NCBI RefSeq assembly: GCF_000312045.1
Contig: NZ_HE978634.1
Location: 1,224,842-1,288,841 of the forward strand
Source of the DNA: Noviherbaspirillum massiliense JC206
GTDB lineage: Bacteria > Pseudomonadota > Gammaproteobacteria > Burkholderiales > Burkholderiaceae_D
Direction of reading: 5' to 3'
DNA: 64,000 nucleotides
Shown here: one piece after another, positions 53,703-54,427 of the stretch
How positions within the stretch are numbered: position 1 is the first letter of the stretch
How the letters are laid out: each line of letters starts with the position of its first letter
Notes under the pieces: model-generated
The model's database searches: none
Told to the model about the DNA's origin: nothing
The model's input: the letters and a program-made list of their open reading frames with translations, nothing else
Made by a program: the position numbers and the translations under genes

Positions 53703-54367
53703 TCAACCCCAGGCGCGCAGCAAGCCGACCGCCAGGCCTTCTAGTGCGAAATCGTCACTGTTCGGATTAACACGAATCGGTTCGAAATCGGGATTTTCCG
53801 GCAACAGTTCGACGACAGATCCGGTTTTCTTGTAGCGCTTGACCGTTACGTCGTCGCCTAGTCGGGCAACGATAATCTGGCCATTCTTGGCGGCGTCGGT
53901 TTTTTTACTGCTAGCAGATCGCCATCGAGGATTCCCGCATCCCGCATCGACAGCCCGCGCACTTTCAGCAGGTAATCCGGCTTGGCGGAAAACAGGGACT
54001 GGTCGACATTGTAGGTCGCTTCAATATGCTCCTGGGCCAGGATCGGCGAGCCGGCAGCCACGCGGCCGACCAGGGGCAGGCTCAACTGCATCAGCGAAGG
54101 ATGTGGCAGCGCCATTTGCCTCGCGCCGGCAAGCCTCGGCCTTTCATTCTGGCCGGTGTCGCACAGGCGGATGCCGCGCGATGTGCCAGGGGAAATCTCG
54201 ATAGCGCCCTTGCGCGCAAGCGCCTGCAAATGCTCTTCGGCAGCGTTGGCAGAACGAAAACCGAGTTCCGCTGCGATTTCGGCGCGGGTCGGGGGGAAGC
54301 CGGTATTTTCGATCGCTTCCCGAATCAGGTTCAGGATTTGTTCTTGGCGGGCAGTCAGTTTGATCAT
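53703..54367 (-). pseudogene. lexA: LexA SOS repressor with a one-base frameshift in an A-run
   Basis: The SOS repressor and self-cleaving protease. The N-terminal winged helix ([19 protein letters not shown]), cleavage site Ala105-Gly106 (GRVAAGSP) and nucleophile Ser140 (RGLSMRD) are intact. After Lys156 the frame is lost at a run of seven As (complement of 53900-53906): the product ends [13 protein letters not shown], 169 residues. With one more A the frame continues [25 protein letters not shown] and onward to LLRAWG, 221 residues, restoring the catalytic Lys177. So the gene as read gives a protein that cannot self-cleave. A sequencing error, a real mutation, or slippage on the A-run are all possible. 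ATG 54367; a consensus SOS box lies upstream. Confidence 0.85.
53900..53906 (-). other. lexA: homopolymer run at the lexA frameshift
   Basis: Seven consecutive T on the plus strand (A on the coding strand) directly at codons 155-157 of lexA. Eight would keep the reading frame. Confidence 0.9.
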
Positions 54368-54411
54368 GGTAGGGCCTATCCGGATGTGCTGGTGCTGTGC
54401 ATAACGACAGG

Positions 54412-54427
54412 CTGTATTTTTATACAG
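54412..54427 (-). promoter_or_regulatory. SOS box (LexA operator)
   Basis: CTGTATTTTTATACAG is a perfect CTGT-N8-ACAG LexA operator, 45 bases before the lexA ATG. It supports autoregulation of lexA and shows the SOS circuit is of the E. coli type. Confidence 0.92.

Follow-up and report, generated by a model that had tools for sequence, protein, structure and literature searches.

A one-base frame break in lexA of Noviherbaspirillum massiliense JC206, probably an undercounted A homopolymer in the genome record

The window, by which we mean the whole analysed stretch of 64,000 nucleotides, carries lexA on its minus strand. The gene opens with an ATG at 54367 and, as read, spans 169 codons before the stop at 53858, which the ORF listing also reaches from a more upstream ATG. 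The features that concern us are the following.

53858..54367, minus strand: lexA as read, 169 aa, with residues 1-156 LexA-like and the last 13 in the wrong frame
53703..53906, minus strand: remainder of lexA in the shifted frame, including the catalytic Lys, up to the family's normal stop
53900..53906, minus strand: A7 run in the sequence, the point of frame loss and an in-frame A_AAA_AAA heptamer
54412-54427: SOS-box-like site CTGTATTTTTATACAG, from a pattern search
54395-54410: CTGTGCATAACGACAG, a second such site, separated from the other by one base, from a pattern search

The plus strand reads TTTTTTT at 53900-53906, so that the coding strand has A7 there, and the proposal of the first-pass annotation that seven As break the lexA frame at this place is confirmed. 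Profile searches assign residues 1-156 of the product to TIGR00498 positions 1-140 and the minus strand of 53706-53906 to positions 139-201 of the same model. The shifted frame meets no stop before the one at 53705-53703, and restoring the frame yields 221 residues, as expected if the rest of the gene is encoded without further defect. The LexA DNA-binding domain (PF01726) covers residues 1-65 with 98.5 bits, and the S24 peptidase domain is whole in neither frame, PF00717 positions 1-62 being found in one and 59-115 in the other. In an alignment to E. coli LexA, the cleavage pair falls at Ala105-Gly106 and the catalytic Ser at residue 140 (E. coli counterpart 119), within the first piece, and the catalytic Lys at Lys177 (E. 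coli counterpart 156), which is encoded solely past the shift; the roles of these residues we take to be those of their aligned E. coli counterparts. The PF01726 match and the alignment thus agree with the earlier description of a 169-aa product that keeps DNA binding, cleavage site and Ser140 and lacks Lys177.

A search of the JC206 genome (4.19 Mb; three contigs, of 3.15 Mb, 1.03 Mb and 1.8 kb) revealed no second lexA, both matches being pieces of the broken gene. The lexA region matches its best relatives at 77-78% in a search of 60 genomes. Shared with E. coli LexA (TIGR00498; 1jhh, 3jso) are the domain order, the Ala-Gly cleavage site, the Ser and Lys equivalents and the tandem SOS-box-like sites of the promoter, whereas the C-terminal domain is here split over two frames in the record as given. 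The break is established as a property of the record and, as the break of a conserved gene, is beyond chance; its presence in the cell's DNA is a separate matter.

Upstream of the gene, the SOS box noted in the first-pass annotation is a real site at 54412-54427. The pair of CTG-N10-CAG sites recurs with equal spacing in 22 of the 25 relatives whose lexA start was located by script (29 tried). This conservation indicates that the SOS circuit is normal in the lineage, but it makes no statement on the working state of the isolate's own lexA. The loose pattern CTGT-N8-ACAG was not enriched genome-wide: it occurs at 30 places, all of them counted on both strands, and the reversed control gives 31. 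An Rfam scan of the window returned nothing at the gathering score.

The comparison with relatives that the first-pass annotation had called for places the break in a single record. At the lexA site the frame is kept in each of the 113 other loci (L004-L116, in some cases the same genome drawn from two collections), and our own locus is the sole exception, so that among the loci examined confinement of the break to this record is established. The non-own loci continue in frame for 57-72 residues past the site, the value of 57 coming from L017, where the contig runs out ahead of the stop; in 34 of the 113 the automatic tail pattern was too narrow, and normal tails were judged by reading the printed sequence. 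Across the family, TIGR00498 scores over its cut-off in 124 of 145 genomes, gives weaker matches only in 14 and none in 7. Among the over-cut-off matches listed, just three stop before model position 200: JC206 (1-141), G016 (1-186), where the match stops short because the contig ends, and G122 (1-123), a genome in 580 contigs that is 68% complete. Four of the loci compared, L113-L116, are IMG/VR contigs whose encoded LexA is 66-73% identical to our own, and these contigs may be prophage, or else pieces of bacterial genomes that were binned as viral.

How common such breaks are was surveyed by comparing, in both directions, the 1.2 Mb around lexA in JC206 (3569 N bases in 1.2 million) with 1.2 Mb of a relative, G004, lying on a single contig. 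Matched ORFs were at least 100 aa long, were picked by score and overlap and reached a coverage of 60% or more, their best piece being 50% or more identical. By these limits 478 ORFs of G004 (171,047 aa) were compared with JC206, 65 of them aligned frame-aware, and 486 ORFs of JC206 with G004, 94 of them aligned; these sets include some non-genes and miss genes cut below the coverage limit, and ORFs of at least 1000 aa needing alignment were skipped (2 and 1). A first filter flagged 21 rows for JC206 and 24 for G004, of which 9 and 3 were read by eye and the others sorted by a flank test. The pass rule of this test, built after the lexA and acpP breaks had been seen, combines identity with an excess of third-codon-position differences on both flanks.

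Two JC206 frameshifts pass the flank test, lexA at A7 and acpP at A5, each one base short. In G004 two places pass as well among the 486 comparisons: a presumably SDR-like gene at G5 (C1:1175721) and what we take to be aat at C5 (C1:642480). JC206 therefore shows no excess of breaks over the control, with two places in each. Frame is also apparently lost at A7 in a presumed DUF4845-like gene (C1:1481547, outside the window), about 25 residues before its end, a case that was seen by eye and failed the flank test. The 486 matched JC206 ORFs contain 31 A/T runs of at least seven, 2 of them at the breaks. Grossly truncated homopolymers were not seen in JC206 over the 1.2 Mb, where its run-length spectrum and that of G004 are alike, and as homopolymer lengths look normal the assembly shows no gross fault. 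The in-frame stops that pass the flank test, in JC206 one in B_1079, two in B_2926 and one in B_226, and in G004 one in A_1246, were taken as signs of shadow or diverged ORFs. Among shorter ORFs of 55-99 aa, 819 were matched and 205 aligned; these gave many flagged rows, mostly non-coding in look, that were left out of the counts. Two smaller comparisons, of 19 and 28 ORFs, gave no credited extra break, a 929-aa ORF with three in-frame stops in the latter being taken as a shadow ORF.

The second break in JC206, which is likewise established in the record, lies outside the window in the acyl carrier protein gene acpP (C1:1471759-1471950; L301:1501-1692), where one base is missing at the A5 run and the C-terminal part of the gene sits in another frame. 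Its flanks are as conserved as could be: against G004, 40 of 40 residues are identical before the break and 16 of 16 after it. The gene is the sole over-cut-off TIGR00517 match in JC206 and covers positions 1-64 of 77, and in all 14 congeners the match extends over 1-75 of 77. No other strong acpP copy was found in JC206; two further TIGR00517 matches fall below the cut-off, at 23.8 and 21.7 bits, and are probably other carrier proteins. In E. coli, acpP is essential. By analogy, an AcpP without its last helix should be lethal, and the JC206 record plausibly holds at least one error of the A-run type, such a break being implausible to tolerate. According to PMC3711429, truncations caused by frame breaks close to a 3' end may be real and harmless, which bears on the DUF4845-like gene and in principle also on acpP.

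We propose that the lexA break is a one-base undercount of the A homopolymer in the assembly, and put the probability of this at roughly 85%. What favours an error is which other gene is hit, not the number of breaks. If acpP is essential in this organism too, as we infer, its break is an error, and the lexA break probably is as well; the two have the same sign, lie in the same kind of run and have equally clean flanks, so that they are probably the same error. The lexA of the living cell would then be an ordinary gene, the sole copy found, behind a normal tandem-SOS-box promoter, and the cell would probably have an intact lexA and a normal SOS circuit. This proposal also fits what is described of sequencing errors. 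Homopolymer indels are the predominant long-read error according to PMC12007338, and the JC206 breaks share with them an A-run one base short, conservation on both sides, absence from the relatives examined and more than one gene hit; they differ in that the break rate is low and JC206 may not be a long-read genome. In the same vein, PMC3711429 anticipates that a singleton frame break with BLASTp validation will reflect a sequencing error, not a genuine indel. As read, the lexA break is thus probably an artefact of the record and most likely not a real feature. The significance of the case is mainly one of caution: what looks like a striking lesion in a regulatory gene of a near-complete genome can come down to a single undercounted base, and checking whether essential genes of that record bear the same signature is cheap and needs no reads.

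The break could instead be a real and recent one-base deletion in the A-run that inactivated lexA in this isolate, leaving a poorly dimerising product that lacks the catalytic Lys and stops short of the C-terminal domain's end, with the SOS regulon largely derepressed. We regard this as unlikely, even though slips in A-runs are frequent as real mutations and the remainder of lexA and its promoter are undamaged, as would be expected after a recent event. The number of breaks in JC206 is not unusual, since the control G004 has two as well, and some such breaks could be real. Loss of LexA could also be made tolerable by a missing SulA, for which JC206 has no PF03846 match, a weak point given that in 14 control genomes this model matched E. 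coli alone. Against a real deletion stands the similar break in acpP, which is hard to imagine a cell tolerating and which points to at least one such error in the record. There is also no sign of a mutator background, given a 906-aa ORF, which we take to be MutS-like, and a MutL match over positions 1-554 of 555. Should the break be real, we would sooner expect an unstable, poorly dimerising repressor, and with it a derepressed SOS response, than a locked one. The suggestion in the first-pass annotation that SOS induction is lost or the repressor inactive finds no support in a break that is private to one record in which acpP is broken likewise. It is improbable, by our estimate, that we are looking at a free-living bacterium without a working LexA after a one-base slip, its SOS response either constitutively derepressed or tuned by low-level frameshifting at A_AAA_AAA that sets the amount of full-length LexA; a real lesion would, if true, be an example from nature of the SOS master switch being lost or retuned.

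The run might also act as a switch of repressor level, as the first-pass annotation had raised, if transcriptional slippage, or a -1 frameshift that is programmed or tolerated, supplied some full-length LexA beside the short form. The sequence GTA AAA AAA does contain the A_AAA_AAA heptamer in frame, and a -1 shift there would enter the frame of the remainder. PMC3711429 links A_AAA_AAA to programmed frameshifting and, for transcriptional slippage, cites A-runs of more than 7; in PMC1088944, slippage on eight A is inferred for some organisms. With the -1 frameshifting heptamers of dnaX and IS elements (PMC5009743, PMC3711429) the lexA run shares an A_AAA_AAA in the right frame; it differs from them in that it is not conserved and is weaker than the dnaX heptamer, and no convincing stimulator was seen. 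The stems 3' of the run, one of 4 bp at about 8 nt and one of 8 bp at about 27 nt, have unremarkable z-scores (-1.57 and -1.48), and inspection by eye of the sequence upstream of it showed no Shine-Dalgarno-like stretch. In E. coli, moreover, A_AAA_AAA is much less prone to shift than the A_AAA_AAG of dnaX. A switch of this kind, which has little support, we hold to be very improbable: the frame break is conserved in none of the 113 non-own loci, and two relatives whose lexA is intact, L046 and L047, carry the identical in-frame heptamer. Two further loci, L051 and L060, have seven A too, in another register.
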